DNA from: an uncultured Ilumatobacter sp. | GTDB lineage: Bacteria > Actinomycetota > Acidimicrobiia > Acidimicrobiales > Ilumatobacteraceae | Direction: 5' to 3' | Assembly (NCBI GenBank): GCA_937919625.1 | Contig: CALFRK010000009.1 | Location: 1 to 34,617, forward strand | DNA length: 34,617 nucleotides | Shown: positions 3,544-21,372 of the stretch, piece by piece | Numbering within the stretch: the first letter of the stretch is position 1 | Layout of the letters: each line of letters opens with the position of its first letter | Notes under the pieces: model-generated | The model's input: the letters and a program-made list of their open reading frames with translations, nothing else | What the model was told of the DNA's origin: nothing | Database searches by the model: none | Translations under genes and position numbers: made by a program

Positions 3544-3551
3544 TTGCACTC

Positions 3552-4768: not shown

Positions 4769-4819
4769 CCGATGACCCGTAGAGGGTATGCAACGCACGC
4801 ACACCGGACGGCTCGGCTG

Positions 4820-5340: not shown

Positions 5341-5524
5341 CGGTCACTGTGACGAACTCGCGGTTGCGGGCGATCTCGTGTGGGTTGTCGAGGTGGTTGG
5401 CGATTCTGGCCACCCGGTCCGGATCGCCTGGCAGGAGCACGTACTTCGCTACGTCACCCTTTGCGACCCGGGTTGCGTACTGTGGTCGGTCGCGGTCTAT
5501 CGCGGACTTGTCGAAGGTCGTCAT
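5330..5524 (-). pseudogene. Nucleoside phosphorylase (Udp/DeoD family), N-terminal fragment
   Basis: On the minus strand an ATG at 5524, preceded by GAGGCGG, opens a reading frame with a clear uridine/purine nucleoside phosphorylase N-terminus: VAKYVLLPGDPDRVARIA (phosphate-binding GDPDR) and REFVTVTGTYQG. After about 65 residues the similarity stops at the point where the relaxase fragment, on the other strand, also stops. The enzyme would be about 250 residues if whole. It diverges from the nucleoside operon and shares its intergenic region, so it was presumably part of the same regulon before being cut. A complete paralogue survives at 17807-18571. Confidence 0.8.
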
Positions 5525-5553
5525 CAGTTCACCGCCTCAACGCGGAGTCGCTG

Positions 5554-5563
5554 AACGATCGTT
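5554..5563. promoter_or_regulatory. AACGATCGTT palindrome, possible operator
   Basis: A perfect 10-bp palindrome lies between the divergent phosphorylase fragment and the transporter gene, 27 bp left of the likely promoter. It is a candidate site for the SorC-type regulator encoded in the operon. CGATCG-containing words are very frequent in this genome, so chance is a real alternative. Confidence 0.25.
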
Positions 5564-5649: not shown

Positions 5650-6744
5650 ATGCTGAAGCAACATCGTGTGTGGATTCCGTTGGTAGTGGGTGTCGCCTTG
5701 ATCGCAGGTGCGTGCGGTGGTGATGACGACACCGCCACCACCACCGAGCCGACCGGCACCGAGCCGACGGGCACCGAGCCGACCGCCACCAGCGGGACGG
5801 ACTCCTCGGAGGATGGCCCGCTGCTGATCTACATGACTCCGAACCCGATCGGTGTTAACGAGTTTCTTACCCTCGGCGAGATCGGCACCGAGGCCGCCGC
5901 AGCGGCACTCGGAGGAACCGCCCAAACGTTCGAAGGCGACGACGCCGCAAGCATGCGCTCGAACGTCGAGGCAGCCCTCGACGCCGATGCCGACGTGATC
6001 GTAATGACAACGTTCAGCATGAAGGAACTCGCAGACGAGTTCTCCAAGGCCAACCCCGACCAGACGTTCGTCCTGATCGACGCCTGCCCCGACGAACCAG
6101 CACCGAACATCTTCTGCGGCGTCTTTCGTGAACACGAGGGCGCGTACCTGCTCGGCATCGAGGCCGGCATGCTCACCGAATCCGGAGTGATCGGCACTGT
6201 CGCTGCACTCGACACCCCGTTTATCCACCGCTGGTCCGACAGCTTCGCCGCCGGCGCCGCATCGGTGCGTGAGGTCGAAGACAACCAGTTGTTTGTCGGT
6301 GGAGACAACCCGTTCGGTGACCCCGCACGAGCCAAAGAGCAGGCGCTCGCAATGGCCTCGCAAGGTGCAGATCATGTACTCGCCGCTGCGGCGGGTGGCA
6401 ACGGTGGAGTGTTCGAAGCGGCCGTCGATCAGGGGTTCTTCGCGTACGGGGTCGATGTGAACCAATGCGGCCTTGCACCTGGATCCGTGATCGACAACAA
6501 CCTCAAGCGCGTCGACGTCGTCGCCCAGACCATGATCGAGAAGGCGCTGGATGGCACGGCCAGCCCGATCACCTCGTTTGGCCTCGCGGAAGGTGGCGTC
6601 GGAGTCGTTGCGCTCGCGGACGACGTCGCCGACAGCGGATGCGTCATCGCCGACCACCCGGACGTGGTTGCTCGGGTCAAGGAAGTTGCGGCACAGATCA
6701 TCGCCGGTGACATCGTCGTCAACGATCCGCTCACCGCAGGCTGA
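5650..6744 (+). CDS. BMP/PnrA-family nucleoside-binding lipoprotein
   Basis: A 364-residue substrate-binding protein of an ABC importer. The N-terminus is a lipoprotein signal with lipobox AGAC, cleaved before Cys22, followed by a low-complexity Thr/Glu/Pro linker (residues about 28-55) that spaces the domain from the membrane. The rest is a Bmp domain (PF02608 type): alternating alpha/beta with conserved stretches such as VIVMTTFSM, GVFREHEGAYLLGIEAGML and YGVDVNQCG. The family binds purine or other nucleosides (PnrA of Treponema, BmpA). It is the first gene of an operon with matching ATPase and permeases, and the mtnA and phosphorylase genes downstream support a nucleoside ligand. A good ribosome site (GGAAGAGAG) precedes the ATG. 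Confidence 0.85.
   Translation: MLKQHRVWIPLVVGVALIAGACGGDDDTATTTEPTGTEPTGTEPTATSGTDSSEDGPLLIYMTPNPIGVNEFLTLGEIGTEAAAAALGGTAQTFEGDDAASMRSNVEAALDADADVIVMTTFSMKELADEFSKANPDQTFVLIDACPDEPAPNIFCGVFREHEGAYLLGIEAGMLTESGVIGTVAALDTPFIHRWSDSFAAGAASVREVEDNQLFVGGDNPFGDPARAKEQALAMASQGADHVLAAAAGGNGGVFEAAVDQGFFAYGVDVNQCGLAPGSVIDNNLKRVDVVAQTMIEKALDGTASPITSFGLAEGGVGVVALADDVADSGCVIADHPDVVARVKEVAAQIIAGDIVVNDPLTAG
5743..5787 (+). repeat. Three 15-bp tandem repeats in the lipoprotein linker
   Basis: Units ACCGAGCCGACCGGC at 5743, 5758 and 5773 (one mismatch each in the later two) encode TEPTG three times. Such repeats are prone to change in number and simply alter linker length. Confidence 0.8.
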
Positions 6745-6750
6745 CACGTC

Positions 6751-8298
6751 GTGGGCGGTCACAGGGATGCGAGCGAAAGTGTTGAACCAGTCCTTCGCCT
6801 GGAAGGGCTGACCAAACGATTCGGCTCTGTGACCGCCAACGACTCGATCGACCTTACGGTCGGACGCCAAGAGATCCATGCCATCGTCGGCGAGAACGGT
6901 GCTGGGAAGTCGACGCTGATGTCGATGCTGTACGGGATCCTGCAACCCGATGCAGGCGAGATTTGGGTGAAGGGGGAGCGACAGCACTTCAAGAACCCGC
7001 TCGATGCGATGGACGTGGGCCTGGGCATGGTGTTCCAAGAGTTCCAGTTGTTCGATTCGCTGTCGGTTGTCGAGAACGTGATCTACCGACGTGAGCCCCG
7101 AAGGTGGGGACCGATCATCGATATCGACGGAGCATGCGCGGAGATCGACGAACTGGCCCGGAACTACGGGTTGTCGGTCGATCCGCTCGCACGCGTCGAG
7201 CAACTCAGCGTCGGTCAACGTCAACGCGTCGAAGTGCTCAAAGCGCTGTACCGCCACGCGGACGTCCTGATCCTCGACGAGCCGACGGCCGTTCTCACGC
7301 CACAGGAGACCTCGGATCTGCTGGGGATGCTGACAAGGCTCCGTGACGGCGGACGAACGATCGTGTTCATCACACACAAACTCAACGAAGTTATGGACGT
7401 CGCCGACCACGCCACCGTCCTCCACCGAGGCAAAGTCGTTGCGTCTCGGCTCGTCGCCGAAACAAGCCCGACGGAACTCTCCGCCGACATGACCGGCCGA
7501 AACATCGTGCCAACCGCCCGAGCAGAACGTCGCCAACCTGGACGCACCGTCCTCAACGTGAGCGAACTCTGCGTCGGACGCACCGACGATGGTGACGGAC
7601 TCGCTACAGATCGGGTCTCCCTCGCGATTGGCGCCGGCGAGATCCTCGGTGTGGCCGCGATCGCCGGCAACGGCCAAGAAGAACTCGTCCGCGCGATCGT
7701 CGGCCTGGCACCGATCGTCAGCGGCACGATCGGGATCGAAGGAACACCGATCCACGGCTTGAGCACACGACAACGACGCGAGCACCTCGCATACGTTCCC
7801 GAAGACCGAAAAGGGATTGGAAGCGCCGGCTCGGCATCGATCCAGGAGAACCTCCTCATGGGATTCCAGCGCGAACCGAGGTTGTGCTCACGCGGCTGGC
7901 TCAACCGGGGAGAGGCGCTGCGTCACGCCAACGACCTGATCGACCGCTACGGAATCGTGACGCAGAGCGCGGCCGCCAAAGCATCGTCGCTGTCGGGTGG
8001 CAACCTTCAGAAGGTTCTGCTCGGCAGAGAACTCGCACGGTCGCTTCCCGTGCTGATCGTCGAACAGCCGACTCGAGGCGTCGACATCGGAGCGATCGAG
8101 TTCATCCATCAGCAACTGCTGCGATATCGCGACGGCGGAGGTGCCGTGTTGCTGGTGTCGGCCGAACTTTCGGAGTTGCTCAAACTGTCGACACGTATCG
8201 CCGTAATGTCGAAAGGCAGACTGGCCGCCGTCGTCGAGCCCGACGCGACCAGCGAAACGGAGTTGGGTCTCTACATGTCCGGGGCAACGACGTCGTGA
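6751..8298 (+). CDS. Double-domain ABC transporter ATPase (nucleoside type)
   Basis: A 515-residue protein with two ABC cassettes, as in sugar and nucleoside importers of the RbsA/NupA type. Domain 1 has Walker A GENGAGKS (residues 47-54), signature LSVGQRQRV and Walker B VLILDEPT. Domain 2 has the degenerate loop AGNGQEE in place of Walker A, signature LSGGNLQKV and Walker B VLIVEQPTRG, so one ATP site is probably the main hydrolytic one, as is usual in this subfamily. The GTG start is six bases after the lipoprotein stop; there is no strong ribosome site, which suggests coupling. The stop overlaps the next start by GTGA. Confidence 0.85.
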   Translation: MGGHRDASESVEPVLRLEGLTKRFGSVTANDSIDLTVGRQEIHAIVGENGAGKSTLMSMLYGILQPDAGEIWVKGERQHFKNPLDAMDVGLGMVFQEFQLFDSLSVVENVIYRREPRRWGPIIDIDGACAEIDELARNYGLSVDPLARVEQLSVGQRQRVEVLKALYRHADVLILDEPTAVLTPQETSDLLGMLTRLRDGGRTIVFITHKLNEVMDVADHATVLHRGKVVASRLVAETSPTELSADMTGRNIVPTARAERRQPGRTVLNVSELCVGRTDDGDGLATDRVSLAIGAGEILGVAAIAGNGQEELVRAIVGLAPIVSGTIGIEGTPIHGLSTRQRREHLAYVPEDRKGIGSAGSASIQENLLMGFQREPRLCSRGWLNRGEALRHANDLIDRYGIVTQSAAAKASSLSGGNLQKVLLGRELARSLPVLIVEQPTRGVDIGAIEFIHQQLLRYRDGGGAVLLVSAELSELLKLSTRIAVMSKGRLAAVVEPDATSETELGLYMSGATTS

Positions 8299-9428
8299 GC
8301 GAGCACACGATCAGCGTGCGCACCACGCAACTCGAACCGGTCTGGGTCCGAATCGTTCGAGTCGTCGGAGGGCGCGTCAGCTCGGCGATTCTCATCTCAC
8401 TCCTGCTGGGCGTCGCCGTTGTGGCGTTCAGCGGAAGCGGGCCAATCGAGGTGTTCAGCGCGTTGTTGACCGGCGCGGTCACCGAGTCCGGGCCCCGAAA
8501 CACGCTGGCACGAGCCGTTCCGATCGGCGGCATGGCGCTCGCCTTCTCGATCCCGTACCGTGCCGGCGTCGTCAACTTGGGCGGCCAAGGTCAGATGGTG
8601 CTCGGCGGACTCGTCGGATCGATCGTCGCGATCTATGCACCTGGACCCGATCCGCTGGTACTCGTTGTTGCCATCGTCGCCGGCGCCGCAACCGGGGCGG
8701 CCTGGGCGGCTCTCGCTGCGCTCGGCCAGTGGAAACTCATGTTGCCAATCCTCATCACGACTCTGCTCAGCAACTACATCGCAGATGCGATCTCCGGCTA
8801 TCTGATCCGATACCACGTCGGAGATCCCGGGGCGTCGGCGATTGCGATGAAGCCGATACCTCTCGACCGGCGCGTGCCGACGCTGCCGATCTTGGGGGGA
8901 GTGACGGTCAGTGTCGTCGTGCTGGTCATCGTGGTGATCGTGATCTCGATCCACGATCGCAGACGCGTCGCGGGGTACGAATCGCTGATGACCGGCTACA
9001 ACCCGTCGTTCGCCTGGTACGGAGGACTCGCCGTGGATCGACAGCGTTCAACGCTCCTGATCGTCGGCGGGGCGATCGGTGGGGCGGTTGGCGCCAACCT
9101 CATCGTCGGACAACTCTTCGTGAACATCCATGGTGACATCACAGGAACGGCGTTCGCATGGACCGGCCTGATGGTCGCACTGATCGCCCCGCGAAACCCG
9201 ATCGCGATCGCGATCGCCGCACTCGGATTCGCCGGCCTACAAGTCGGTGGGCTCGCCATGCAACGAGAGACCGGCGTACCCGGATCGCTCGCACTCGTTC
9301 TGCAAGGAATCATCATCGTCGTATTCATGACGCGACTGGTGTTCGTCCGTTCGACGTGGGCTCCTCGACGCCGAGCGCCGAACGCCGACACGACCCTGGG
9401 AACGATCGGTGGTGGCAAGGATGCTTGA
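8295..9428 (+). CDS. ABC transporter permease 1 (BPD_transp_2)
   Basis: A 377-residue membrane protein of the RbsC/NupP-like permease family with about nine or ten hydrophobic helices and conserved blocks IPYRAGVVNLGGQGQMVLGG and ITTLLSNYIAD. It pairs with the following permease to form the channel of the importer. The reading frame is open far upstream, but that part overlaps the ATPase gene. The GTG at 8295 overlaps the ATPase stop as GTGA and begins directly before the conserved N-terminal helix, so it is the start. The C-terminus is a soluble basic tail overlapping the next gene by 8 bp. Confidence 0.85.
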   Translation: MSEHTISVRTTQLEPVWVRIVRVVGGRVSSAILISLLLGVAVVAFSGSGPIEVFSALLTGAVTESGPRNTLARAVPIGGMALAFSIPYRAGVVNLGGQGQMVLGGLVGSIVAIYAPGPDPLVLVVAIVAGAATGAAWAALAALGQWKLMLPILITTLLSNYIADAISGYLIRYHVGDPGASAIAMKPIPLDRRVPTLPILGGVTVSVVVLVIVVIVISIHDRRRVAGYESLMTGYNPSFAWYGGLAVDRQRSTLLIVGGAIGGAVGANLIVGQLFVNIHGDITGTAFAWTGLMVALIAPRNPIAIAIAALGFAGLQVGGLAMQRETGVPGSLALVLQGIIIVVFMTRLVFVRSTWAPRRRAPNADTTLGTIGGGKDA

Positions 9429-10353
9429 TCAAATTCTGACCGAGGCATTCCTCGAAGCGGTCATCCGAGCGATGATCCCCATTCTCCTCGCTGCGATGGG
9501 TGGTCTCATCGCGGAACGCTCAGGCGTGTTCCAGATCTCCCTCGAGGGCTCGATACTGGCCGGCGCGTTCGGCGCCGTCGCCGCGTCATACGCGACAGGG
9601 AGTTCGTTGGTCGGAGTGCTCGCCGGAGGACTTGCCGGCATTCTCATCTCGCTGATTCTGGCGTTCGGCGCGGTCAGTCGAAAGGCCGATCCGATCGTGC
9701 TGGGAATCGCCATCAACCTGTTCGCATTGGGATTCACCGGATTCCTACTCACCCAGATCTTCGATATCCGCGGTAGTTTTTCGGACCCAGCCATCGTCGG
9801 ATTGCCCGACTGGCGGATCCCTGGCCTCAGCTCGATACCGGGAGTAGGCAGTGCCTTCTTCGAGTTGACCGCCCTCGGGTACATCGCATTTCTGAGCGTG
9901 CCAGTGCTGTGGTTCGTGCTGTTTCGAACCACCGTTGGTCTCCGTCTGCGCGGCGTCGGAGAACACCCCACCGCCGCCCGCACGTTGGGCGTCAGTGTGG
10001 TGCGCTACCGCTACGGCGCGGTCGGATTCTCCGGCCTGATGGCCGGACTCGGCGGCGCCCAACTCTCGTTGAGCAACGTGGTGCTGTTCACAGATGGGAT
10101 GTCGGCCGGTCGAGGATGGATCGCGATCGTCGGCGTAATGCTCGGGCGAGCTCACCCAGTCGCCGTGCTCGGCGTGGTCGGCTTGTTCGGATTCTCCGAG
10201 GCGTACGGTTTCCGACTACAGGGCAACGGGCTTCCATCACAGATCACCGACGCCTTACCGTTTGCTGTCACGATCGTCGCGCTTGCGGTGTCTCGCAAAC
10301 GGTTCGCCAAGCTTCTCAATCTGGCCGCAACGCCACCGGAGGTAGGGGAATGA
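9421..10353 (+). CDS. ABC transporter permease 2 (BPD_transp_2)
   Basis: A 310-residue permease with about eight helices and the family block AERSGVFQISLEGSILAGAF near the N-terminus. Permeases of this second type are shorter and accompany the longer first type in nucleoside importers. The ATG at 9421 has AAGG directly upstream and overlaps the previous gene by 8 bp; a GTG at 9409 is less likely because it lies farther inside that gene. The stop overlaps the regulator start as ATGA. Confidence 0.85.
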   Translation: MLDQILTEAFLEAVIRAMIPILLAAMGGLIAERSGVFQISLEGSILAGAFGAVAASYATGSSLVGVLAGGLAGILISLILAFGAVSRKADPIVLGIAINLFALGFTGFLLTQIFDIRGSFSDPAIVGLPDWRIPGLSSIPGVGSAFFELTALGYIAFLSVPVLWFVLFRTTVGLRLRGVGEHPTAARTLGVSVVRYRYGAVGFSGLMAGLGGAQLSLSNVVLFTDGMSAGRGWIAIVGVMLGRAHPVAVLGVVGLFGFSEAYGFRLQGNGLPSQITDALPFAVTIVALAVSRKRFAKLLNLAATPPEVGE

Positions 10354-11345
10354 CAACGTCGAAACGAGTTGTTGCGTCTGACACGACACCAACGTTGCCA
10401 CGATCGTCTCGCGAGGAGCAGTTGGTGACCGCGGCCTGGCTGTATCACGTCGGGGGTCGCAACCAACAACAGGTAGCAGACCGCTTGGGGGTGTCCCGGG
10501 CGACGGTGGTCCGACTCCTCCAAGACGCCCTCGAGGAGGGCATCGTCGAAGTCCGCGTCACACGACTGCTTCCAGCAGATGTGGCGCTGGGACTCGAACT
10601 CGAAGGGGCCCTGCAGAGGAAGCGTGTCCGCCAGGTCGTGGTATCCGATGGCGAGGGAAAGGAAGCAGTCGCCAGAGCCACGTCGCAATTCCTGACTCGG
10701 ATCCTCAACAGCGACGACATCGTCGGCGTCGGATGGAGCACCACGCTCGCTCTGGTGGATCGCGTTCTCCCTGATGCTCCGCCACACCGGGTCGTCCAAA
10801 TGGTCGGATCCGTCGGACTGGGAGGGCTCGGCGATGGTTACGAGATCGCGGTCCGCCTTGCGCGGGAGTGGAATGCGGCCGTCGCTACGCTCCCTGCGCC
10901 GGTGTTCGTGAGCGACACCATCGTTGCCGCGGCACTTCGCAGCGACCACCACGTCGCAGCTACCATGGGTGAATTCTCATCGGTCACGGTCGCCGTCGTC
11001 GGTGTCGGCACGGTCACCGCCGACTCGACCATGGTTGCAACGGGCTACCTGACCGCAGAAGAGTTGACCCAACTCGCCGAGGACGGCGCCGTGTGTGACG
11101 TGCTCGGCTGCTACCTGGATGAGAACGGTGCGGAGGTCGAGTCCAGGCTGACCGGCGTCCGTATCGGCGCCTCTCTCGAAGATCTGCGTTCACGGCCCAG
11201 CGTTGTCGCCGTGGCCGCCGGCCAGCACAAGCTGGCGGCCGTACTCGGAGCAGTTGAGGCGCGCCTGATCGACACGCTCATCGTGGACCGCGAACTGGCC
11301 CTCGCGCTTCGTGACCACCTACTTAAGGCGAAGCATCAATCGTGA
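10350..11345 (+). CDS. SorC/DeoR-like transcriptional regulator
   Basis: A 331-residue regulator. Residues about 20-65 hold the helix-turn-helix (AAWLYHVGGRNQQQVADRLGVSRATVVRLL), a typical SorC-family DNA reader. Residues about 75-325 form the sugar-phosphate-binding domain (PF04198 type), with VGVGWSTTL and VAVAAGQHK near the ligand pocket as usual. SorC regulators respond to phosphorylated sugars; DeoR of Bacillus, in this family, responds to deoxyribose 5-phosphate. A pentose-phosphate intermediate of the pathway encoded downstream is a likely effector. It lies between importer and catabolic genes, overlapping both neighbours by four bases, so it is co-expressed with its targets. Confidence 0.85.
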   Translation: MTTSKRVVASDTTPTLPRSSREEQLVTAAWLYHVGGRNQQQVADRLGVSRATVVRLLQDALEEGIVEVRVTRLLPADVALGLELEGALQRKRVRQVVVSDGEGKEAVARATSQFLTRILNSDDIVGVGWSTTLALVDRVLPDAPPHRVVQMVGSVGLGGLGDGYEIAVRLAREWNAAVATLPAPVFVSDTIVAAALRSDHHVAATMGEFSSVTVAVVGVGTVTADSTMVATGYLTAEELTQLAEDGAVCDVLGCYLDENGAEVESRLTGVRIGASLEDLRSRPSVVAVAAGQHKLAAVLGAVEARLIDTLIVDRELALALRDHLLKAKHQS

Positions 11346-12388
11346 CGTTTTCCAGCCTGGAATGGTGCCAGCCGGGAACGCTGCGCATCCTCGATCAACA
11401 ACACCTGCCACGCCAACTGGAGTACCGAGACTGCCACACGGTCGCCGACGTCGTGGAGGTCATCACCACGATGGCGGTACGTGGCGCACCGGCGATCGGC
11501 GTCGCAGCGGCGTACGGGATGGTCATCGCCGCCCAGAGCGCCGATGATTCGACCGACGCAATGCGAACTGCGCTCGAGGACGCCGATGCACAACTGCGGG
11601 CGTCGCGTCCCACCGCAGTCAATCTGTTCTGGGCATTGGACCAGATCCGGGCGGTGTGGAGCCCTGAGATCGCCGAGCAGCCTGCCAGCGAGGTTCGAGC
11701 AGCCATCGAACGCGCCGCCGCGAGCCTCTTCGAGGACGACCTGAAAGTCAATCTGGCGATCTCAAAGGCCGGGGCGGAACTGCTCCCGCACGACGCACTC
11801 GTCTTCCACCACTGCAACACGGGCAGCTTGGCGACGACCGGCTACGGGACCGCGTTAGGCATCATCCGCGTCGCTCACGAGAGCGGAAAGGTGATCTCCG
11901 TGCTGGTCGACGAGACGCGGCCCCGGCTCCAAGGTGCCAAGTTGACCGCCTGGGAACTCCAAGAACTCGGGATTCCGTACCGGCTCGTTGTCGACGGAGC
12001 GTCCGGCCACTTCATGCGCACGGAGACGGTGCATGCATGCTTCGTCGGTTGCGATCGCGTCGCTGCCAACGGTGACACCGCCAACAAGATCGGAACGTAC
12101 AACCTGGCGGTCGTGGCCCGACATCACGGAGTTCCGTTCTATGTCGCAGCGCCGTGGAGCAGCATCGACCTCATCACGGCGACCGGCGACCAGATCCCGA
12201 TCGAAGAACGGAGCGCCCGCGAGGTGACCCACATCGAAGACATATCCGTCGCACCAACAGGTGCGATCGTGGCCAACCCGGCCTTCGACATCACGCCCGC
12301 CGAACTGATCACGGCCTTCGTGACCGAACGCGGGCTCGTCTACCCGCCCTTCACCGAGAACCTCGCCAACCAGGCGACGGCGTCCTGA
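11342..12388 (+). CDS. mtnA: Methylthioribose-1-phosphate isomerase family protein
   Basis: A 348-residue MtnA homologue. MtnA converts 5-methylthioribose 1-phosphate to 5-methylthioribulose 1-phosphate in methionine salvage; some relatives act on 5-deoxyribose 1-phosphate or ribose 1,5-bisphosphate. Visible hallmarks are RGAPAIGVAAAYG (residues 47-59), HHCNTGSLATTGYG with Cys158, DETRPRLQGAKLTAWEL, and FVGCDRVAANGDTANKIGTY with Asp238; Cys158 and Asp238 are the catalytic pair. PFYVAAPWSSID near the C-terminus is also typical. The GTG start overlaps the regulator stop as GTGA. The RuBisCO-like gene follows two bases after the stop, a pairing known from methylthioadenosine metabolism. Precise substrate is unproven. 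Confidence 0.88.
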   Translation: MTFSSLEWCQPGTLRILDQQHLPRQLEYRDCHTVADVVEVITTMAVRGAPAIGVAAAYGMVIAAQSADDSTDAMRTALEDADAQLRASRPTAVNLFWALDQIRAVWSPEIAEQPASEVRAAIERAAASLFEDDLKVNLAISKAGAELLPHDALVFHHCNTGSLATTGYGTALGIIRVAHESGKVISVLVDETRPRLQGAKLTAWELQELGIPYRLVVDGASGHFMRTETVHACFVGCDRVAANGDTANKIGTYNLAVVARHHGVPFYVAAPWSSIDLITATGDQIPIEERSAREVTHIEDISVAPTGAIVANPAFDITPAELITAFVTERGLVYPPFTENLANQATAS

Positions 12389-12390
12389 TC

Positions 12391-13545
12391 ATGCAGCCAT
12401 CACCGCTCCAACCGACCACGCTAACGCTGTCAGGCGAGCGGCTCCGCGTCACCTACGAACTCACAGGCGACAGCGATCGCACGACCGCGATCGCCGAACA
12501 ACTCGTCATCGAGCAGACGATCGAGTTCCCACCCGAACTCGTCCCCGACGACGACATCCTCGGCCAGATCCTCGGCCGGATCGAATCGTCGACCACGATC
12601 GACAACGGAATCCGGATTCAAGTGTCCTACGCAGAGGAGATCGTAGGGGGCCAACTTCCCCAGCTGCTCAACGTCCTGTTCGGCAACATGTCGATGGTGC
12701 CAGGCGTCAAGGTGGTCGACGTCGAACTCCCCGACTCGTTGAAACGAGCGTTTCCCGGCCCGCGGCATGGTCTGGCGGGACTCCGCCACCGTTTCGGTGT
12801 CGAATCGGGCCCACTGCTCGCAACGGCGCTCAAACCAATGGGCACACCGATCGACCGCCTCGCATCGCTCGCCGGTCAGATGGCCGTCGGAGGGATCAGC
12901 CTCATCAAGGATGATCACTCGTTCGCCACCCAACCGTTCGCCGACTTTCGCCAACGGGTCGTCGCCATCGCCGACGCCGTCAACAGCGCCGACAGCGGTT
13001 CGATCTATCTGCCCGCCCTCAACGTCCCGATGGACGAACTCCCGGCGGCAGCAACCTTTGCACTCGAAGCAGGAGCCGGTGGACTGCTCGTGTTGCCGGG
13101 AATTTTCGGGTTCGACACGATGCGCTGGCTCTCTCAGCACACACCCGACCACACCGTCATCATGTCGCACCCCGCTCTGCTCGGTTCGTTCGTGGCCTCA
13201 CGCGAATCCGGATTCTCGCACAGCGTGATGTTCGGCCAGATCCCACGACTAGCCGGCGCCGACGTCTCGATCTTCCCGAACTACGGCGGTCGGTTCGCAT
13301 TCCCCCAGGACGACTGTGCCGCGATCGCCCAAGCGTGTACCGCCCCAGACTCGACCATGAGGCCAGCCTGGCCGTGCCCGGCCGGCGGGATGTCCGTCGA
13401 ACGGGTACCCAACATGGTTCGGTTCTACGGCGTCGACACCTGTCTATTGATCGGCGGCGACTTGTATCGCGGCTCGATCGCCGAACAGGCCGAACGGATC
13501 GCCGAGGCGCTACGACACATCGAAACCGAGGAGACGACTGCATGA
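12391..13545 (+). CDS. RuBisCO-like protein (form IV, probably DeepYkr type)
   Basis: A 384-residue protein with an N-terminal alpha/beta domain (to about 130) and a RuBisCO-type barrel. ATALKPMG (Lys148) and LIKDDH (Lys173, Asp174, Asp175, His176) match the active-site lysine and the carbamylation motif, but the last metal-binding Glu of true RuBisCO (KDDE) is His. KDDH with the following QPFADF and the later HPALLGSF, FPNYGGRFAF, PAGGM and YGVDTCLLIGG blocks agree with the Rhodospirillum rubrum-type (DeepYkr) RuBisCO-like proteins. The R. rubrum enzyme isomerises 5-methylthioribulose 1-phosphate to 1-methylthioxylulose 5-phosphate. Its place directly after mtnA supports the same reaction or one on a related 5-deoxy sugar. 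CO2 fixation is very unlikely. Confidence 0.85.
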   Translation: MQPSPLQPTTLTLSGERLRVTYELTGDSDRTTAIAEQLVIEQTIEFPPELVPDDDILGQILGRIESSTTIDNGIRIQVSYAEEIVGGQLPQLLNVLFGNMSMVPGVKVVDVELPDSLKRAFPGPRHGLAGLRHRFGVESGPLLATALKPMGTPIDRLASLAGQMAVGGISLIKDDHSFATQPFADFRQRVVAIADAVNSADSGSIYLPALNVPMDELPAAATFALEAGAGGLLVLPGIFGFDTMRWLSQHTPDHTVIMSHPALLGSFVASRESGFSHSVMFGQIPRLAGADVSIFPNYGGRFAFPQDDCAAIAQACTAPDSTMRPAWPCPAGGMSVERVPNMVRFYGVDTCLLIGGDLYRGSIAEQAERIAEALRHIETEETTA

Positions 13546-14450
13546 ATCACCAACAGATCGACGAGATCGCGTCTGGCATTCGCCGGCGTGTTTTCGAACA
13601 CGTGATGAAGCATGACGGCGGCTATCTCAGCCAGGCACTGTCGTCGGCCGGCATCTTCGCATGCCTGTACGGCGACACGATGAATCTCGAGCCGTTGCCC
13701 GCCCCGCTGGAACCCCGACCATTCGAAGGAGTCCCGGCGAGCAACAACCACGCCTACGAGTCGGGAGATCGCTTCAACGGTGAACACCGCCCAGTTAGCG
13801 ATCGCTTCTTCTTCTCGCCGGCCCACTACGCCCTGGTGCTCTACGCCGCCTTGATCGAGGTCGGACGGCTCGCCCCTGACGCCCTCGATTCGTTCAACGT
13901 GGACGGTTCGACGCTCGAGATGATCGGAGCCGAGCACTCGCCCGGCATCGCCACGACCACCGGCTCGCTGGCACAAGCGCTCAGCCAGGCGAACGGAGTC
14001 GCATTGGCCCGCAAGCTGCGCGGCGAAACGGGTTCGAACTGGGTTTTTATGTCGGACGGAGAGTTCCAAGAGGGCCAGACCTGGGAGGCGCTCGCCTTCG
14101 CGGCCTACCACCGACTCGACCGGCTGTGCATCGTCGTCGATGCGAACGGTCAACAATGCGATGGAGCGATGACGAGCGTGATGGGCATCGAGCCACTGCT
14201 ACCACGCCTCGAAGCGTTCGGCTGGGACGCATACGAAGTCGACGGCCACGACACCCCGGCGCTCACATCGGCGCTCGCATCGGGACGTGACAGCGATCGG
14301 CCCTCGGCTGTGATCGCCAGAACTGACCCTGCCTATCTCGTCGAGCCACTCGCCGCCCGAGCCCCGTTGCTGCACTACCTGAGGTTCAGCTCCGACGACG
14401 AGCGCCGGGTGTTCGCCGACGCCTATCAACGCCTACTGGAGACTGTGTAA
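13542..14450 (+). CDS. Transketolase N-terminal subunit
   Basis: A 302-residue protein with the thiamine-diphosphate-binding half of a split transketolase. The cofactor motif is FMSDGEFQEGQTWEA (SDG in place of the usual GDG, residues 171-173) with the metal ligand region IVVDANGQQCDG (Asp200, Asn202) about 27 residues on. EHSPGIATTTGSLAQALSQANG is the family block before it. Between LYG at residue 44 and the FFFSPAHYALVLYAAL block at about 89 lies an extra loop of some 40 residues that I do not recall in standard subunits; it could reshape the substrate entrance. The gene overlaps both neighbours (ATGA and TAATG). In this operon it probably cleaves the ketose phosphate made by the RuBisCO-like protein. 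Confidence 0.82.
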   Translation: MNHQQIDEIASGIRRRVFEHVMKHDGGYLSQALSSAGIFACLYGDTMNLEPLPAPLEPRPFEGVPASNNHAYESGDRFNGEHRPVSDRFFFSPAHYALVLYAALIEVGRLAPDALDSFNVDGSTLEMIGAEHSPGIATTTGSLAQALSQANGVALARKLRGETGSNWVFMSDGEFQEGQTWEALAFAAYHRLDRLCIVVDANGQQCDGAMTSVMGIEPLLPRLEAFGWDAYEVDGHDTPALTSALASGRDSDRPSAVIARTDPAYLVEPLAARAPLLHYLRFSSDDERRVFADAYQRLLETV

Positions 14451-15457
14451 TGGAGATCGTCACTCGACCCCACGTCGAAAACTTCATCGACTGGTGTAGG
14501 ACACGTCCCGAGGTGCTCGCCCTGTCGGCCGACCTCACCAACTCGTGCGAACTCGGCAAGTGGCGCGACACCTATCCCGATCGGTTCATCACCGCCGGGA
14601 TGGCCGAACAGAACATGCTCGGCGTCGCCGGCGGGCTCGCCAGGGAAGGGTTCGTCCCCTTCATCCATACATTCGCCGTGTTCATCTACCGCCGGGCCTA
14701 CGACCAACTCGCGATGTCGGTCGCCTACCCGAACCTCAAAGTCAGACTTCTCGGATTCCTCCCCGGCATCGTGACGCCGGGCGGGGTCACCCACCAAGCG
14801 ATTGAGGACATCGCGATCATGAGGGCAACCCCGAACATGACCGTTGTCGAGACCGGCGACGCGACCGAAGTGGAATCGGTGCTCGACGCGACCGAGCACA
14901 TCGACGGCCCCGTCTACATTCGGATCCTGCGCGGCGAGGTTCCCAGACTGTTCCCACAGGATTCGCCAATGGTGGTCGGCGAATCGCGAACCCTGAGCTT
15001 AGGCGACGACCTCACGGTGTTGACCGCGGGCATCGCGACCGAGGAGGCTCTGCGCGCCTGCCAGGCACTCGAACGGGCCGGCGTCGGCGTCACCCACATC
15101 CACGTGTCGACCCACAAGCCGTTCGGAGACGCCGCGATCGAAGCGGCGCTCGCCGGTGCCAAGCACGGTGTCATCACGCTGGAGAATCACACCATCATCG
15201 GCGGGCTCGGCAGCGCGGTCGCCGAGTTGATGGCCGAGAAGGGGATCGGTTCCGGGTTGACCCGGCTCGGACTCCGCGACACCTACGCTCACGGGGCGGC
15301 GCAAGCCCACCTCATGCGGGAGTACGGCCTCGATGCCCAAGCGCTGATCGAAGCCGCAGAGCATCGGCTCGGCGAATCGACCGGTGTCTCGGTGGACGAC
15401 CTGTCGCACGCCCGCGTCGCTGCAATCCACAGCGACGCCAAGGCCGAGGCGCTCTGA
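14450..15457 (+). CDS. Transketolase C-terminal subunit
   Basis: A 335-residue protein holding the pyrimidine-binding and C-terminal domains of a split transketolase. Residues 20-170 are the pyrimidine-binding domain: LSADLTNSC, FITAGMAEQNMLGVAGGLA with the conserved Glu that activates thiamine diphosphate, and GIVTPGGVTHQAIEDIAIM. Residues about 185-310 form the C-terminal domain (LTAGIATEEAL, LENHTIIGGLGSAVAE). The partner is the preceding gene and the start overlaps its stop by one base (TAATG). The closest described logic is that of specialised split transketolases such as those of apulose 4-phosphate catabolism, but the neighbours here point to a nucleoside-derived ketose phosphate. Confidence 0.82.
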   Translation: MEIVTRPHVENFIDWCRTRPEVLALSADLTNSCELGKWRDTYPDRFITAGMAEQNMLGVAGGLAREGFVPFIHTFAVFIYRRAYDQLAMSVAYPNLKVRLLGFLPGIVTPGGVTHQAIEDIAIMRATPNMTVVETGDATEVESVLDATEHIDGPVYIRILRGEVPRLFPQDSPMVVGESRTLSLGDDLTVLTAGIATEEALRACQALERAGVGVTHIHVSTHKPFGDAAIEAALAGAKHGVITLENHTIIGGLGSAVAELMAEKGIGSGLTRLGLRDTYAHGAAQAHLMREYGLDAQALIEAAEHRLGESTGVSVDDLSHARVAAIHSDAKAEAL

Positions 15458-15459
15458 GC

Positions 15460-17796
15460 ATGACGACGCAACCGTCGCGTTCGACGATGACCCATTGGGG
15501 TGCGTTCCGTGTGGTTGCCGACGCCAACGGCATCGTCGATGTGAAAGGGGTCGACGGCGACAACGACCCGTCGCCGATCGGGGACCGTCTTCGCGAAGCC
15601 AACGCTCGACGCGTCCCCGCACCGCTGGTGCGGGAATCGTGGCTGACTGACGGAGTCTTCGCCAACCCGCACCGCCGCGGCCTCGACCGGCTGGTGCCCG
15701 TCGAATGGGATCATGCGATCGACCTGGCGGCTGACGCGATCGCGGCGACGATCGCAGAACACGGCAACCAAGCTGTGTACGCCGGATCGTACGGGTGGGC
15801 GTCAGCCGGTCGATTTCATCATGCACAGAGCCAGCTCAAACGTTTCCTGAATCTGATCGGAGGTTTCACCGGCTCGATCGGCACTTACAGTTCCGGTGCG
15901 CTCGAAGTGGTGCTCCCCGAAGTGCTCGGCACCAACGAGATCACCTTCTTCGGATCCGGAGTGCCGTCGCTCGACGAAGTCGCCCACACGACCTCGCTGT
16001 TCGTCAGTTTCGGGGGATTCCCGGCTTTCAACACCCAGGTCAGTCCAGGCGGCGAAGCCCGCCACCTCTACCGTCCCCACATGCGGGCGGCCGCCGCCCG
16101 CGGCTGCGAATTCGTGTCGGTCGGACCAGTTATCGGGGAGTTCGACCGCGAACTCGCGGCCGATTGGCTCCCGATCAGGCCCGGAACCGACGCCGCCGCG
16201 ATGCTCGGCCTCGCCGGCGAACTCGCCCAGCAATTGACGCCAGACGAACTCGCCGGCAATCACATCCTGATGACCCACTGCACGGGTGGCCAACGACTCC
16301 TCGACCTCCTCGGGGGGCGGATCGACGGCACCCGACGCGATGCTGTCTGGGCAGCCGGGATCTGCGACGTTCCCGTCGACCAGCTTCGAGCGCTGGCACA
16401 ACGAATCGCCCAGGCTGAACGTCCGATCGTGAACGCCACCTGGTCGACGCAGCGCACCGAAGGTGGAGAGCAAGCGGTCTGGAGCCTGGTCGCCCTCGCA
16501 GCGATGACGGGCGAGCTCGGAACTGTCGGAGCGGGACTGGCGTTTGGCTATGGATCGATGGGCAACGTTGGTGCCCCGACAGCAGGAACCCGACTTCCGG
16601 CGATCGATCAGGGTTGCAACAAGATCGATACTGCCATCCCCGTGGCGACCCTCGTCGAAGCGCTCGAACGCCCGGGGGAGGAGTACCTGTTCGCAGGACA
16701 ACGACGCCGATACCCCCAGATCGACCTGATCTACTGGTGCGGCGGCAACCCATACCACCATCATCAGGACCTGGGCCGCCTCGAACGCGCCTGGCGAACG
16801 CCCAGAGCCGTCATCGTCAACGACCCGTATCTCACGGCGACGGCCCAACGAGCTGACATCGTCTTTCCGTCCTCGATCGGCCTGGAGCGCCGCGACCTGG
16901 CGGCACTGTCGTCATCCCGGTACCTCGTGTTCATGGACCGCATCCTGGACCCACACGAGCAATCACGTGACGACTTCGAGATCTTCTCGGACCTCGCCGA
17001 CCGATTCGGGTGCCGCGATCGTTTCACCGAAGGCCGCACCGCAGACGAGTGGGTCGAACACCTCTATGCGAGAGCGAAGACCGACGACACGAAACTGCCC
17101 GACTTCGCCGACTTCGTCGTCTCCGGCGAGGCGGAGCGAACCGTCGACGTGCCGGTCAACTTCATCCAGCAATTTCGCGACGAACCAGAACGGCACCCCT
17201 TGGCGACCGAGTCGGGTCGGGTTGAACTCTGGAAACAGAACCCCCCGCCCGGCGTCCCCGAACACCCCGACTGGAAGCCGCCACACGAGTGGCTGGGCGC
17301 TGCCGCCGCCGACCAGTTCCATCTCCTCTCGCCTCAGCCCAGAGGAACACTCCATTCCCAACTCGCAGGAACCGGCTCACCATCGCCGGCACCGGTCGTG
17401 ATCTCGATCGAGGATGCCAGGGATCGAGGATTGTCCGACGGCTGGATCGTGCTCCTGACGAATGAGCGCGGCGGTTGTCTCGCAACCGTGAGCACCAGCG
17501 ACTCGATCCGTCCAGGGGTACTTCTCCTTCACACCGGCGTGTGGTGGGAACCGGCCGAGACACGACTCGGCGTGGTCTGTGCGAACGGCAACCCAAACGC
17601 ATTGACGAACGCCCGAACGACGTCGCAGTGGGCATCGGCAACGGCCGCGCATACGTGTCTCGTCCGTCTCGTCGCCCCCGTGCCCGCCGACGTCTTGGCG
17701 GCGTGCGAGAAGGCGAGACGCCGACACTACAACGATCGCTCCAACGACGGTCCACGCGCTGCCGCGACTCCGACACGGGCCATCGCCCCAGAATGA
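15460..17796 (+). CDS. Cytoplasmic BisC/DMSO-reductase-family molybdoenzyme
   Basis: A 778-residue molybdopterin oxidoreductase. The start (THWGAFRVV) lacks both a twin-arginine signal and an N-terminal [4Fe-4S] cysteine set, as in biotin sulfoxide reductase BisC. Conserved blocks are YAGSYGWASAGRFHHAQSQ (residues 107-125) and TYSSGALEVVLPEVLG, in which Ser144 (or 145) should ligate molybdenum as in DMSO and TMAO reductases; later come WCGGNPYHHHQDL and a C-terminal dinucleotide-binding domain. The family reduces S-oxides and N-oxides. Its place inside a nucleoside catabolic operon is unusual: a sulfoxide (methylthioadenosine S-oxide) or nucleoside N-oxide is a sensible substrate, but that is inference. 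An internal ATG at 15487 is an alternative start. Confidence 0.85.
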   Translation: MTTQPSRSTMTHWGAFRVVADANGIVDVKGVDGDNDPSPIGDRLREANARRVPAPLVRESWLTDGVFANPHRRGLDRLVPVEWDHAIDLAADAIAATIAEHGNQAVYAGSYGWASAGRFHHAQSQLKRFLNLIGGFTGSIGTYSSGALEVVLPEVLGTNEITFFGSGVPSLDEVAHTTSLFVSFGGFPAFNTQVSPGGEARHLYRPHMRAAAARGCEFVSVGPVIGEFDRELAADWLPIRPGTDAAAMLGLAGELAQQLTPDELAGNHILMTHCTGGQRLLDLLGGRIDGTRRDAVWAAGICDVPVDQLRALAQRIAQAERPIVNATWSTQRTEGGEQAVWSLVALAAMTGELGTVGAGLAFGYGSMGNVGAPTAGTRLPAIDQGCNKIDTAIPVATLVEALERPGEEYLFAGQRRRYPQIDLIYWCGGNPYHHHQDLGRLERAWRTPRAVIVNDPYLTATAQRADIVFPSSIGLERRDLAALSSSRYLVFMDRILDPHEQSRDDFEIFSDLADRFGCRDRFTEGRTADEWVEHLYARAKTDDTKLPDFADFVVSGEAERTVDVPVNFIQQFRDEPERHPLATESGRVELWKQNPPPGVPEHPDWKPPHEWLGAAAADQFHLLSPQPRGTLHSQLAGTGSPSPAPVVISIEDARDRGLSDGWIVLLTNERGGCLATVSTSDSIRPGVLLLHTGVWWEPAETRLGVVCANGNPNALTNARTTSQWASATAAHTCLVRLVAPVPADVLAACEKARRRHYNDRSNDGPRAAATPTRAIAPE

Positions 17797-17806
17797 GGAA
17801 CCAACC

Positions 17807-18571
17807 ATGACAACACTTTCAAAAGAACCGCTGCCGGTACTGCGCGTCGCACCCGACGACCTTCCCGAGCGAATCGTCGTCGTCGGCGACCCCGACCGGG
17901 CCGAACGCATCGCTCACACGCTCGACGGATTCGAGGAACTCGGCCGCTACCGCGAATACGTCACGTTCCGAGGGAACCACCGCGGCGTCAACATCGGCGT
18001 CACCTCGCACGGCGTCGGAGCCGGCGGAGCTGCGATCTGCTTCGAAGAACTCTGTCGAGGCGGCGCCCAGGCAATCGTGCGGGTTGGCACCGCAGGAGGA
18101 TTGCAGCCGCATATTCTCGACGGACACCACATCGTGGTCGTTGGAGCGATCCGCGACGACGGCGTCACCGATCGGCTCGTTCCGTTGGGCTTCCCAGCGT
18201 TGGCGGCACGACGCCTGACCGACGCGTTGATGACCGCCGCCGCCGGCTCAGATCACGAAGTTCACGAGGGAATCACGCTGACCGGGGCCGTCATGTACCC
18301 GCTCGCCGTGCTCGGGAGCAACCTGGAACTCTGGCAGCGCGCCGGTGCCGCGTCCGTCGAGCAGGAGTGCGCCCCGCTGTTCGTCATCGCAGCGCTTCAC
18401 GGTATCGAGGCCAGCAGCATTCTTACGATCGACGGGAACCCGCTGCTCGAAAACGACGTCGAAATGTCCGACTACGACCCGCACCGGCAACTCGTCCACG
18501 ATGCAGTCGATGCCGCAGCGCTGATCGCCCTCGATGCCCTGTCCGCACTCGAGGTGCCTCCACGAAACTGA
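17807..18571 (+). CDS. Nucleoside phosphorylase (Udp/DeoD family)
   Basis: A 254-residue member of the PNP/UDP phosphorylase superfamily, which cleaves nucleosides with phosphate to base and (deoxy)ribose 1-phosphate. IVVVGDPDRAERIA (phosphate loop), SHGVGAGGAAICFEEL, AIVRVGTAGGLQ, and VEQECAPLFVIAALHGIEASSILTIDG (ribose-binding Glu region, then Asp in place of the purine-contacting SD motif) are all present. It ends the operon, ten bases after the molybdoenzyme, with GAGGAA as ribosome site. With the importer and mtnA it should provide the sugar 1-phosphate that MtnA uses. Base specificity cannot be read from the sequence. A truncated paralogue diverges from the start of the operon. Confidence 0.85.
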   Translation: MTTLSKEPLPVLRVAPDDLPERIVVVGDPDRAERIAHTLDGFEELGRYREYVTFRGNHRGVNIGVTSHGVGAGGAAICFEELCRGGAQAIVRVGTAGGLQPHILDGHHIVVVGAIRDDGVTDRLVPLGFPALAARRLTDALMTAAAGSDHEVHEGITLTGAVMYPLAVLGSNLELWQRAGAASVEQECAPLFVIAALHGIEASSILTIDGNPLLENDVEMSDYDPHRQLVHDAVDAAALIALDALSALEVPPRN

Positions 18572-19915: not shown

Positions 19916-20295
19916 GCGCAGAACCGTCAGCGAGGCCGCTGCACGGATCGATCTCAGGCCTGCGATGAGGACGCTAGGAAGCCACTCGGGATCAACTCGT
20001 CGGCGGCACCTCTGGCGTACGTTTACCGATCGCTATCCGGACGCCGCGGTCCTCCCGATCACGAGGTCGGTGGCAGCGAGTGTGTAGACGCAGACTTTGC
20101 CGGTGGTCGTGAGCTTCGTCCTAGCTCGGTCCGAACGCCGTCGCCGCAACGACACGACACGAGCCCGGGCTCTGACCGCATCTCCACCGCGTGGAACCAT
20201 GGTGGCCATCCACCCCGGCGCTCAACCCGAACGGGCGCTGCCGGGCGAGCATCCAGTCGCCTACAATGACGACGGATCGGCTCGGAGGTGCGCTG
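19916..20295. other. Intergenic region, no gene seen
   Basis: 380 bp without a supportable gene. Minus-strand frames are Arg/Ser-rich shadows of the next gene. TACAAT just before 20270, upstream of the LRAT gene, could be a -10 box, but no -35 box is recognisable. Confidence 0.45.
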
Positions 20296-21372
20296 ATGGC
20301 TGCTGGTGATCATGTATTCGTGCGACGGCCCGGGTACACCCATCATGGGGTCGAGGTGAACGACGGGATGGTCGTTCACTTTTCCGGTACGCCAGGCAGC
20401 AAGCGCGGCGCATCGATTCGTCGAGAGCCGTTGGAGACGTTCTCCAAGGATGCCACGGTGCAGGTGACGGATTACGGTGAGCGATTCGATCCCGCCGAGG
20501 TGGTAGAGCGTGCGGAGTCCAAGCTCGGCCAGTCTGGCTACAACCTGTATGGCAACAACTGTGAGCACTTTGCCCGATGGTGCGTGACGGGCGATCATAA
20601 GAGCCGTCAGGTCAACGGGTTCAAGGCGACTGGGGCGGTCGGAGGATCGACTGCCACGGCGGCGGGAGGCGTTGGCGTGGTAAGCGCCGCTGGGGTGACG
20701 ACTGGACTGAGCGGTCCGGGGATCATGTCGGGTCTTGCCGCGAGCGGAGCTGTCGTCGGCAGTGGTGCAGTCGGAGGGCTCGTGGTGCTCGGGCTCGTGC
20801 CGGGGGTTACGAGTGCTTTGGTCATGAACGTTGCTCTTCGAGACGACAAGGCGCTGCCGAGCAGTGAGAGGTCGGCACGTCGAGTTGGCCGCAAGGCTTC
20901 GGTGGCGGGAGTCGCTGGGGGGAGCATGGCAGGTGTGGCGGCTGTCAGTTCTGCTGGCTCGGTCGCTGGATTGAGCGCGGCTGGGATTAGCTCCGGCCTC
21001 GCGACCATCGGAGGAACGATCGGCGGAGGAATGGCGGCTGGCTCGTTCGTCGTGATTGCTGTTCCAGCGGTGGCAGCGGCGGGAGTTGGGTATGGGGCGT
21101 ACAGGTTGACGAGGTTCGTCGCCGCACATCCACCATCCGGTTCGCCGCAAGTATCGAAAGCCGCTACACGCCTCCGTAGATCAGTCGCTGGGAGCGAGGT
21201 AGCGAAGCGGCTGCGGATCAAGGTCACCGATAGCGAACTGACCCACCGGCTCCGAGACTCAGCCGCTGAAGTTCCTCGTCGCATGACCGAGCTGAGATCG
21301 CGCCGCCATGCCGATCCCGATTCAGCTTCAGCGAACGGAACCGACGCTGGAGGGAACGGCGGCCGTCACTGA
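20296..21372 (+). CDS. LRAT-domain protein with glycine-rich hydrophobic region
   Basis: A 358-residue protein. Residues 1-100 form an LRAT domain (NlpC/P60 superfamily): GDHVFVRRPGYTHHGVEV gives the catalytic His (16 or 17), VVHFSG a second His (28), and GNNCEHFARWC the nucleophile Cys89. The family acts as lipid acyltransferase or hydrolase. Residues about 110-290 are long Gly/Ala/Val/Ser-rich hydrophobic stretches with repeated motifs (SAAGVTTGLSG, SAGSVAGLSAAGISSGLA), resembling glycine-zipper membrane insertion segments and apparently duplicated. The tail of about 70 residues is basic. GGAGG seven bases before the ATG at 20296 fixes the start. It may be a membrane-acting toxin or lipid-modifying enzyme; this is inference. 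It converges on the next gene with a 7-bp overlap. Confidence 0.75.
   Translation: MAAGDHVFVRRPGYTHHGVEVNDGMVVHFSGTPGSKRGASIRREPLETFSKDATVQVTDYGERFDPAEVVERAESKLGQSGYNLYGNNCEHFARWCVTGDHKSRQVNGFKATGAVGGSTATAAGGVGVVSAAGVTTGLSGPGIMSGLAASGAVVGSGAVGGLVVLGLVPGVTSALVMNVALRDDKALPSSERSARRVGRKASVAGVAGGSMAGVAAVSSAGSVAGLSAAGISSGLATIGGTIGGGMAAGSFVVIAVPAVAAAGVGYGAYRLTRFVAAHPPSGSPQVSKAATRLRRSVAGSEVAKRLRIKVTDSELTHRLRDSAAEVPRRMTELRSRRHADPDSASANGTDAGGNGGRH

Follow-up and report, generated by a model that had tools for sequence, protein, structure and literature searches.

Why should a molybdenum-dependent oxide reductase be encoded within an operon that seems built for the uptake and breakdown of nucleosides? 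The question is raised by a 34,617-nucleotide stretch of DNA from an uncultured Ilumatobacter sp. (contig CALFRK010000009.1 of assembly GCA_937919625.1; hereafter the window), in which an open reading frame (ORF) on the forward strand (positions 15460–17796, start codon ATG, 778 codons) encodes a BisC-type protein of 778 residues. A sequence-only reading of the window had called this protein a cytoplasmic S-/N-oxide reductase and had suggested oxidised methylthioadenosine (MTA) or adenosine N-oxide as its substrate. We propose, with about even confidence, that the enzyme would act in the cytoplasm on an imported methylsulfinyl nucleoside or sugar, such as MTA sulfoxide, and reduce it to the thioether. 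MTA is a widespread metabolic by-product, and we know of no enzyme that returns its sulfoxide to salvage.

Identity of the BisC-type enzyme

The protein matches the NCBIfam family bisC_fam (TIGR00509; E 6.9e-194, 646.3 bits) without reaching its curated cut-off of 1017.55, and it contains the Pfam molybdopterin and dinucleotide-binding domains together with the N-terminal domain of the group. Its closest solved chains by sequence are the Rhodobacter dimethyl sulfoxide (DMSO) reductases and Haemophilus MtsZ. A fold search with an AlphaFold2 model (predicted local distance difference test, pLDDT, 83.1; predicted template-modelling score, pTM, 0.86) returned MtsZ, a methionine sulfoxide reductase, as the nearest structure (7l5s; template-modelling score, TM, 0.87), with DMSO reductase 1eu1 (TM 0.88) in the top three. 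Across the MtsZ and DMSO reductase structures TM spans 0.86–0.88, which places the predicted fold among the bis-molybdopterin-guanine-dinucleotide (bis-MGD) enzymes. Model confidence is low in the final 21 residues and at residues 112–117, which flank the active site, and the pocket is for that latter reason not interpreted.

By alignment, the serine that ligates molybdenum in DMSO reductase corresponds to Ser144, and all 134 aligned sequences have serine here. The active-site Tyr114 and Trp116 of DMSO reductase have their counterparts in Tyr111 and Trp113; the tyrosine is kept in 132 of the 134, and E. coli TorA is gapped there. All S-oxide reductases in the alignment of PMC5122715, as far as the available part of that paper goes, keep both the tyrosine and the tryptophan, and TorA is without the tyrosine. 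Because the Ser/Tyr/Trp set is kept and TorA misses the tyrosine, an S-oxide reductase is favoured over a TorA-like N-oxide enzyme. The N-terminal 80 residues contain no RRxFL-type twin-arginine translocation (Tat) motif, and CxxC, the pattern checked for iron–sulfur clusters, is absent from the whole protein; among the 134 sequences a loose Tat motif flags TorZ, TorA, DmsA and three loci. The serine ligand and the lack of both a Tat signal and iron–sulfur cysteines, all named by the sequence-only reading, are thereby confirmed. The residues and the missing Tat motif support its assignment of a cytoplasmic enzyme, which we take to be of the single-subunit Mo-bis-molybdopterin-guanine-dinucleotide (Mo-bisPGD) S-/N-oxide reductase type.

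The window enzyme is like E. coli BisC and TorZ and Haemophilus MtsZ in its fold, its single catalytic subunit, its Ser ligand, its active-site Tyr and Trp and its lack of an iron–sulfur motif, and like E. coli BisC it has no Tat signal. It differs from BisC and TorZ in sequence (33–33.5% identity, outside their branch and below the bisC_fam cut-off) and in being encoded in a catabolic nucleoside operon. Its position outside the BisC/TorZ branch, together with this identity, speaks against its being an orthologue of E. coli BisC.

The gene belongs to a run of 11 genes (5650–18571; Table 1) whose neighbours overlap or stand at most 10 bases apart. It starts 2 bases past the transketolase stop, and the phosphorylase starts 10 bases past its own stop. 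Its place inside a nucleoside operon, as first read, is borne out: it is a true part of a catabolic operon of a methylthio-nucleoside-like kind. A split transketolase that went unmentioned in the first reading makes the operon more unusual than the molybdoenzyme alone would.

Occurrence of the BisC-type gene beside the pathway genes

Queried by tblastn with the window BisC-type protein, a set of 72,556 plasmids gave 241 matching records. On plasmid p-SCP4 of Ponticoccus alexandrii (Alphaproteobacteria), the BisC-type gene lies between mtnA and the gene for the transketolase N subunit, which is followed by the C subunit and then by a RuBisCO-like protein (RLP). Upstream are a purine-nucleoside phosphorylase, an amidohydrolase and, divergently oriented, a BMP-type transporter with a sugar-binding regulator. 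This cluster is equivalent to that of the window, whose genome looks actinobacterial: it holds six WhiB genes above the Pfam cut-off, and of 14 control genomes only one, Corynebacterium, has matches to that family. Between window and Ponticoccus, identity is 56% for the transketolase C subunit, 55% for MtnA, 50% for the transketolase N subunit, 48% for the binding protein, 41% for the BisC-type enzyme and 37% for the RLP, and the phosphorylases show no mutual match at E 1e-3. Searching the plasmids with the BMP binding protein gave no further record above 45%.

With the Ponticoccus transketolase C subunit as query, 24 plasmid records were found at 50% identity or more, the next being at 43% and below; 16 were read, and the remaining 8 are strains of, or close to, those. 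A BisC-type gene adjoins this transketolase in at least 3 of the 24 records. The chance expectation for 24 records within ±10 kb is 0.017–0.027 at the collection-wide BisC density, a density too low for alphaproteobacterial megaplasmids, and a conservative variant with one random BisC copy on each of the three plasmids gives 2.5e-4. An association of the BisC-type gene with the transketolase beyond chance is confirmed.

The 16 plasmid records, the window and nine loci of other genomes found with the window transketolase subunit (fetched at length: 7 of 9 from one search, 2 of 57 from another) make up 26 transketolase loci. Partner genes were tabulated by tblastn over these and the RLP loci; the loci are not independent, many being Hyphomicrobiales plasmids or from one order. 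The BisC-type gene is present in 4 of the 26, namely the window, Ponticoccus, Marinovum and Paracoccus seriniphilus. Both loci with nucleoside entry, that is, with a BMP-type transporter and a phosphorylase, have it (window and Ponticoccus), as do both with an NMT1-type ATP-binding cassette (ABC) transporter (Marinovum and P. seriniphilus), whose clusters also hold a xylulokinase-like kinase, a zinc alcohol dehydrogenase and a class II aldolase. It is found in none of the 12 loci with methylthioribose kinase (MtnK) and a sugar-type ABC transporter, in none of three with another sugar-type ABC transporter (type judged by eye), an FGGY kinase, a dehydrogenase and an aldolase, nor in the one Vibrio locus or the six others, some of which end at contig ends. 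Setting operons that have the gene against those that lack it, as the sequence-only reading had suggested, shows that the BisC-type gene follows the route by which the compound enters and not the shared core, as expected if the enzyme corrects the oxidation state of an imported compound. The Hyphomicrobiales plasmid methylthioribose clusters (MtnK-MtnA-transketolase-RLP) share the transketolase subfamily, MtnA and RLP with the window operon and, in several, the sugar-binding regulator, but all 12 of these loci lack the BisC-type gene, and they differ further in their kinase entry and their sugar-type ABC transporter.

How the gene reached these operons was examined in a tree built from 134 BisC-type proteins. 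Locus sequences had to start before residue 70 and end after residue 690 of the query with more than 200 bits; shorter, duplicate and two-frame sequences, including that of genome G092, were dropped. The Ponticoccus enzyme falls in a clade of 11 (support 0.999) that does not contain the window enzyme, which is joined on a long branch (1.2) to a clade of 41 (0.957). The exact place of the window enzyme is unsure because of this branch, and the nodes around it have supports of 0.197–0.957. The Marinovum and P. seriniphilus enzymes form a clade of four (1.0) whose position near the window enzyme the tree leaves unresolved, and neither the Ponticoccus nor the window clade includes E. coli BisC, TorZ or TorA. 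Provided that this topology holds, enzymes of the BisC type look to have joined this pathway at least twice independently, and such recruitment speaks for a function in it.

The wider family occurs in many settings. The nearest plasmid relatives of the Ponticoccus enzyme are 58–60% identical and include that of Phaeobacter, whose gene adjoins AMP-binding, enoyl-CoA hydratase and tripartite ATP-independent periplasmic (TRAP) transporter genes. The BisC type is present in 37 of 397 genomes of the order and 16 of 396 of the phylum (E 1e-60, own genome counted), the best match being 52% over part of the protein; around BisC-type loci in 17 stretches of 15 genomes, several on short contigs, no MtnA, RLP or this transketolase was found. 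Order-wide co-occurrence proved uninformative, with 37 genomes carrying the BisC type, 8 the transketolase (at least 46%) and 2 both (the window's own genome and G092, where the two genes lie on different contigs). A scan of genome contigs gave 148 BisC-type relatives, with none above 43% among the best 80 of 148; its patterns are short peptides, so it can miss orthologues. In genome G081, the BisC-type gene stands beside uracil phosphoribosyltransferase (upp) and a BMP-type transporter at a contig end (L197, 5159–12419), a neighbourhood that is suggestive only.

Ninety-six BisC-type loci were scanned for MtnA, RLP, transketolase and phosphorylases. In locus L102, from a Rhodobacteraceae metagenome-assembled genome, after the BisC-type gene come an MtnA-like gene and then a phosphorylase of the S-methyl-5'-thioinosine type, which scores 333.8 against the NCBIfam cut-off of 223 for S-methyl-5'-thioinosine phosphorylase. 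The MtnA-like genes of L102 fall below the salvage_mtnA cut-off, and neither this transketolase nor an RLP was found near its BisC-type gene; the locus is possibly another methylthio-nucleoside route. Positions 4483–14247 of L102 hold two MtnA-like genes, the methylthioinosine phosphorylase and, named by eye, a thiamine diphosphate (ThDP) enzyme and CoA-transferase-like genes. In five loci (L058, L048, L053, L061 and L064), the BisC-type gene has another, more distantly related split transketolase no further than 10 kb away, and in the first four a TRAP transporter, confirmed by Pfam, stands between the two. These four (L064 was less examined) are alphaproteobacterial, with the TRAP transporter divergent and a short-chain dehydrogenase/reductase present by eye; some TRAP-linked loci also have an IclR regulator (by eye) and a PCC-domain protein, the latter found by Pfam in L058.

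A split transketolase beside the RuBisCO-like protein

In the MTA-isoprenoid shunt of Rhodospirillum rubrum and Rhodopseudomonas palustris, a cupin-type methylsulfurylase cleaves the RLP product 1-methylthio-xylulose-5-phosphate (available portions of PMC5893883 and PMC4958253). The window operon has MtnA and an RLP in common with this shunt, but it differs in that no such cupin was found in it, in the split transketolase beside the RLP, and in its added uptake transporter and molybdoenzyme. In the window's own genome (98.7% complete), the best match to one cupin query has an E of 0.042. Among 26 RLP loci, part of which had been found through the transketolase, 16 have the transketolase pair only, 8 the cupin only, 2 neither and none both. 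A plasmid search started from the RLP gave 24 records, of which 22 are in the transketolase list, 1 has the cupin and 1 neither, and of eight close RLPs from the order to which the window belongs, 7 have the cupin and 1 has neither partner. From 50 RLP genomes, the comparison used the own genome, eight at 38–48% and one outgroup (G001, locus L146; excluded from the RLP count), with the 40 weaker left out. Because transketolase and cupin never stand together beside the RLP in the loci tabulated, we infer that the transketolase probably replaces the cupin of the shunt.

In the RLP tree, the cupin-linked RLPs form one clade (support 0.956), and the window RLP groups with two transketolase-linked RLPs and one with neither partner (0.994), next to but apart from the cupin-linked clade. 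It keeps the Lys-Asp-Asp motif and is a candidate 5-methylthioribulose-1-phosphate 1,3-isomerase of the DeepYkr type.

Both the ThDP/Mg motif (SDGE...N) and the catalytic Glu (GMAEQNM) are retained in the transketolase pair, whose C subunit, at 56% to that of Ponticoccus, is 75–77% identical to those of G119, G253 and G373. The subfamily is distinct: the EMIGAEHSPG loop is found in 9 of 9 aligned members, and all nine have Ile where E. coli TktA has His100. The TRAP-linked transketolases that were aligned carry Ser there (3 of 3). In yeast, the equivalent histidine presumably meets the C1 hydroxyl of the donor, and its loss would then suit a donor with a methylthio group, or no group, at C1. 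In 21 of the 26 transketolase loci, the transketolase is paired with RLP/MtnA or with a dehydrogenase, FGGY kinase and class II aldolase, and the other 5 are more distant members (43–52%). Entry through a dehydrogenase and a xylulokinase-like kinase would be expected to reach the same kind of ketose 5-phosphate.

Table 1. Genes of the window operon, in order of position
Feature	Position	Strand	Evidence
BMP/PnrA-type nucleoside-binding lipoprotein of ABC transporter	5650..6744	+	Pfam Bmp 1.3e-31; 48% identity to Ponticoccus binding protein
ABC ATPase, double nucleotide-binding, sugar/nucleoside type	6751..8298	+	Pfam ABC_tran; NCBIfam ABC_ATP_B6 9.5e-125, below cut-off
ABC permease 1	8295..9428	+	BPD_transp_2 3.1e-20; GTG start chosen, overlaps preceding stop
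ABC permease 2	9421..10353	+	BPD_transp_2 4.8e-32; ATG at 9421 chosen, ORF list has GTG at 9409
SorC/DeoR-type sugar-binding transcriptional regulator	10350..11345	+	Sugar-bind 1.3e-49; NCBIfam DeoR 2.9e-50, below cut-off
MtnA, 5-methylthioribose-1-phosphate isomerase	11342..12388	+	TIGR00512 420.9 bits, cut-off 279; 55% to Ponticoccus MtnA
RuBisCO-like protein (RLP)	12391..13545	+	RuBisCO_large 1.2e-16; IKDDH motif; tree
Split transketolase, N-terminal (ThDP) subunit	13542..14450	+	Transketolase_N 1.8e-21; TktA His100 position is Ile
Split transketolase, C-terminal subunit	14450..15457	+	Transket_pyr, Transketolase_C; catalytic Glu kept (GMAEQNM)
BisC-type Mo-bisPGD S-/N-oxide reductase	15460..17796	+	TIGR00509, alignment, predicted fold; Ser144, Tyr111, Trp113
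PNP_UDP_1 nucleoside phosphorylase, uridine-phosphorylase-like	17807..18571	+	PNP_UDP_1 1.9e-30; TIGR01718 141 bits, cut-off 280

Just upstream of the operon, positions 4772–5554 (+) encode an N-terminal fragment of a TrwC relaxase (Pfam 2.4e-30, positions 1–142 of 286), a hint that the region may derive from a plasmid or other mobile element. Elsewhere in the window are a possible defence protein with a DUF1883 followed by a TIR domain in a single frame (2758–3549, −) and a lecithin retinol acyltransferase-like (LRAT-domain) protein with, by eye, a long Gly/Ala-rich tail (20191–21372, +).

Proposed substrate and pathway of the enzyme

We propose that the BMP-type ABC transporter imports a nucleoside and that the BisC-type enzyme would reduce those that arrive S-oxidised (MTA sulfoxide or methylsulfinyl-ribose derivatives) to the thioether, allowing them to enter the pathway. 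The phosphorylase would then split the nucleoside, MtnA would isomerise the sugar phosphate, and the RLP would move the carbonyl to give a 1-methylthio-xylulose-5-phosphate-like ketose. This ketose would be cleaved by the dedicated split transketolase in place of the cupin. The products would be glyceraldehyde-3-phosphate together with a methylthio unit of two carbons, released either as methylthioacetaldehyde or as acetyl phosphate and methanethiol. The operon encodes no partner subunit to serve as electron donor; Rhodobacter BisC uses NADPH directly, and the window enzyme may do likewise. Taken as a whole, such an undescribed branch of 5'-methylthio-nucleoside salvage, with repair by a molybdenum S-oxide reductase and carbon passing to central metabolism and not to isoprenoids, is a tentative proposal that we hold at somewhat short of an even chance.

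MTA sulfoxide is a real compound, having been identified and quantified as an excreted metabolite in human cell-culture supernatants (PMC2219991, in its available part). Two of the four clusters that combine BisC-type and transketolase genes, those of Marinovum and P. seriniphilus, contain, as far as they were read, no gene that handles bases or nucleosides. A purine N-oxide therefore does not account for all four, and an oxide on the 5-deoxy-sugar part does. This fit to all four clusters, together with the existence of MTA sulfoxide, favours a methylsulfinyl nucleoside or sugar.

Several findings weigh against our proposal. The evidence cited for MTA sulfoxide comes from human cell cultures and not from the habitat of these bacteria. 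MtnA scores above its own NCBIfam cut-off and the window phosphorylase above none; the latter is uridine-phosphorylase-like, and the imported nucleoside therefore need not be MTA. The clusters that carry the gene are few (four), and the identity of the window and Ponticoccus BisC-type enzymes (41%) is no higher than that of the window enzyme to 19 other family members (39–44%). Its nearest relative, in G092 (51–52% over residues 7–543), is split over two frames and lies outside any such operon. MtnA or methylthioinosine phosphorylase is near only 1 of the 96 scanned loci (L102) and a transketolase near only 5; the family serves many pathways, and its presence alone says little. The sequence-only reading had held that frequent occurrence of the gene without the others would tell against it; this is what is seen at the level of the family. 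That reading holds for the enzyme type and the operon membership, is supported by the comparison of operons through the pattern of entry routes, and is weakened for adenosine N-oxide.

The enzyme might instead act on a pathway intermediate as part of carbon–sulfur cleavage, for example by oxidising or reducing the sulfur in the ketose phosphate or in the C2 fragment that the transketolase leaves. In Marinovum and P. seriniphilus its gene does adjoin the transketolase without any annotated nucleoside gene, and the five loci with the more distant transketolase, four of them with the TRAP transporter between, point the same way. We nevertheless consider such a core step improbable, because an essential step should not be missing from loci with the full set, and the gene is missing from 22 of 26 transketolase loci, including 12 with complete MtnK-MtnA-transketolase-RLP. 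A housekeeping reductase of biotin sulfoxide or free methionine sulfoxide that came to lie in the operon by chance would agree with a family that is widespread in many contexts and with E. coli BisC being a cytoplasmic biotin sulfoxide reductase (as stated in the available part of PMC12096835); the tight operon position, the recurrence of the same kinds of neighbours in Ponticoccus and a distribution that follows the entry route make this rather unlikely.

A role in reducing the N-oxides of purines or nucleosides, adenosine N1-oxide for instance, would suit the nucleoside transporter and phosphorylase of the operon and the surroundings of the G081 gene (uracil phosphoribosyltransferase, BMP transporter), and pyrimidine and nicotinamide N-oxides are substrates of the related DmsABC (PMC12096835, same part). 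We regard such a role as quite unlikely, given the two clusters that lack base- or nucleoside-handling genes and the retention of the tyrosine that TorA misses. Another hetero-oxide on a 5-deoxy-pentose, for instance a selenoxide or an algal dimethylarsinoyl riboside, would follow the same pathway logic with a different heteroatom, and no gene of the operon specifies sulfur. It seems very unlikely, since the family matches of the operon include no arsenic or selenium gene and the L102 phosphorylase scores as methylthioinosine type.

Reduction of a methylsulfinyl nucleoside or sugar thus remains our preferred assignment, and the operon around it also differs from known salvage routes. The dihydroxyacetone phosphate (DHAP) shunt for 5-deoxyribose and methylthioribose shares its starting compounds, 5-deoxy nucleosides or sugars, but proceeds by phosphorylation, isomerisation and aldol cleavage, with no RLP or molybdoenzyme mentioned in the available parts of PMC6079011 and PMC10986504. 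Neither the word transketolase nor the word sulfoxide occurs in the main texts, as available, of PMC6302742, PMC5893883 and PMC10986504; that of PMC4958253, as available, has no transketolase and has sulfoxide only as methionine sulfoxide transport. The name methylthioadenosine sulfoxide occurs in 4 papers of the literature searched. Among the literature matches listed there is no description of an MtnA/RLP/transketolase cluster or of one with a molybdoenzyme, which is weak evidence of novelty as subscription papers lay mostly outside the search.

Because the cupin and the transketolase exclude each other beside the RLP, the predicted transketolase reaction can be tested with a single substrate. 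If the proposal is correct, molybdenum S-oxide reductases would gain a role in the acquisition of carbon and sulfur, and the RLP route of methionine salvage would gain, through the transketolase, a second exit. Such a branch could also be a source of volatile sulfur.

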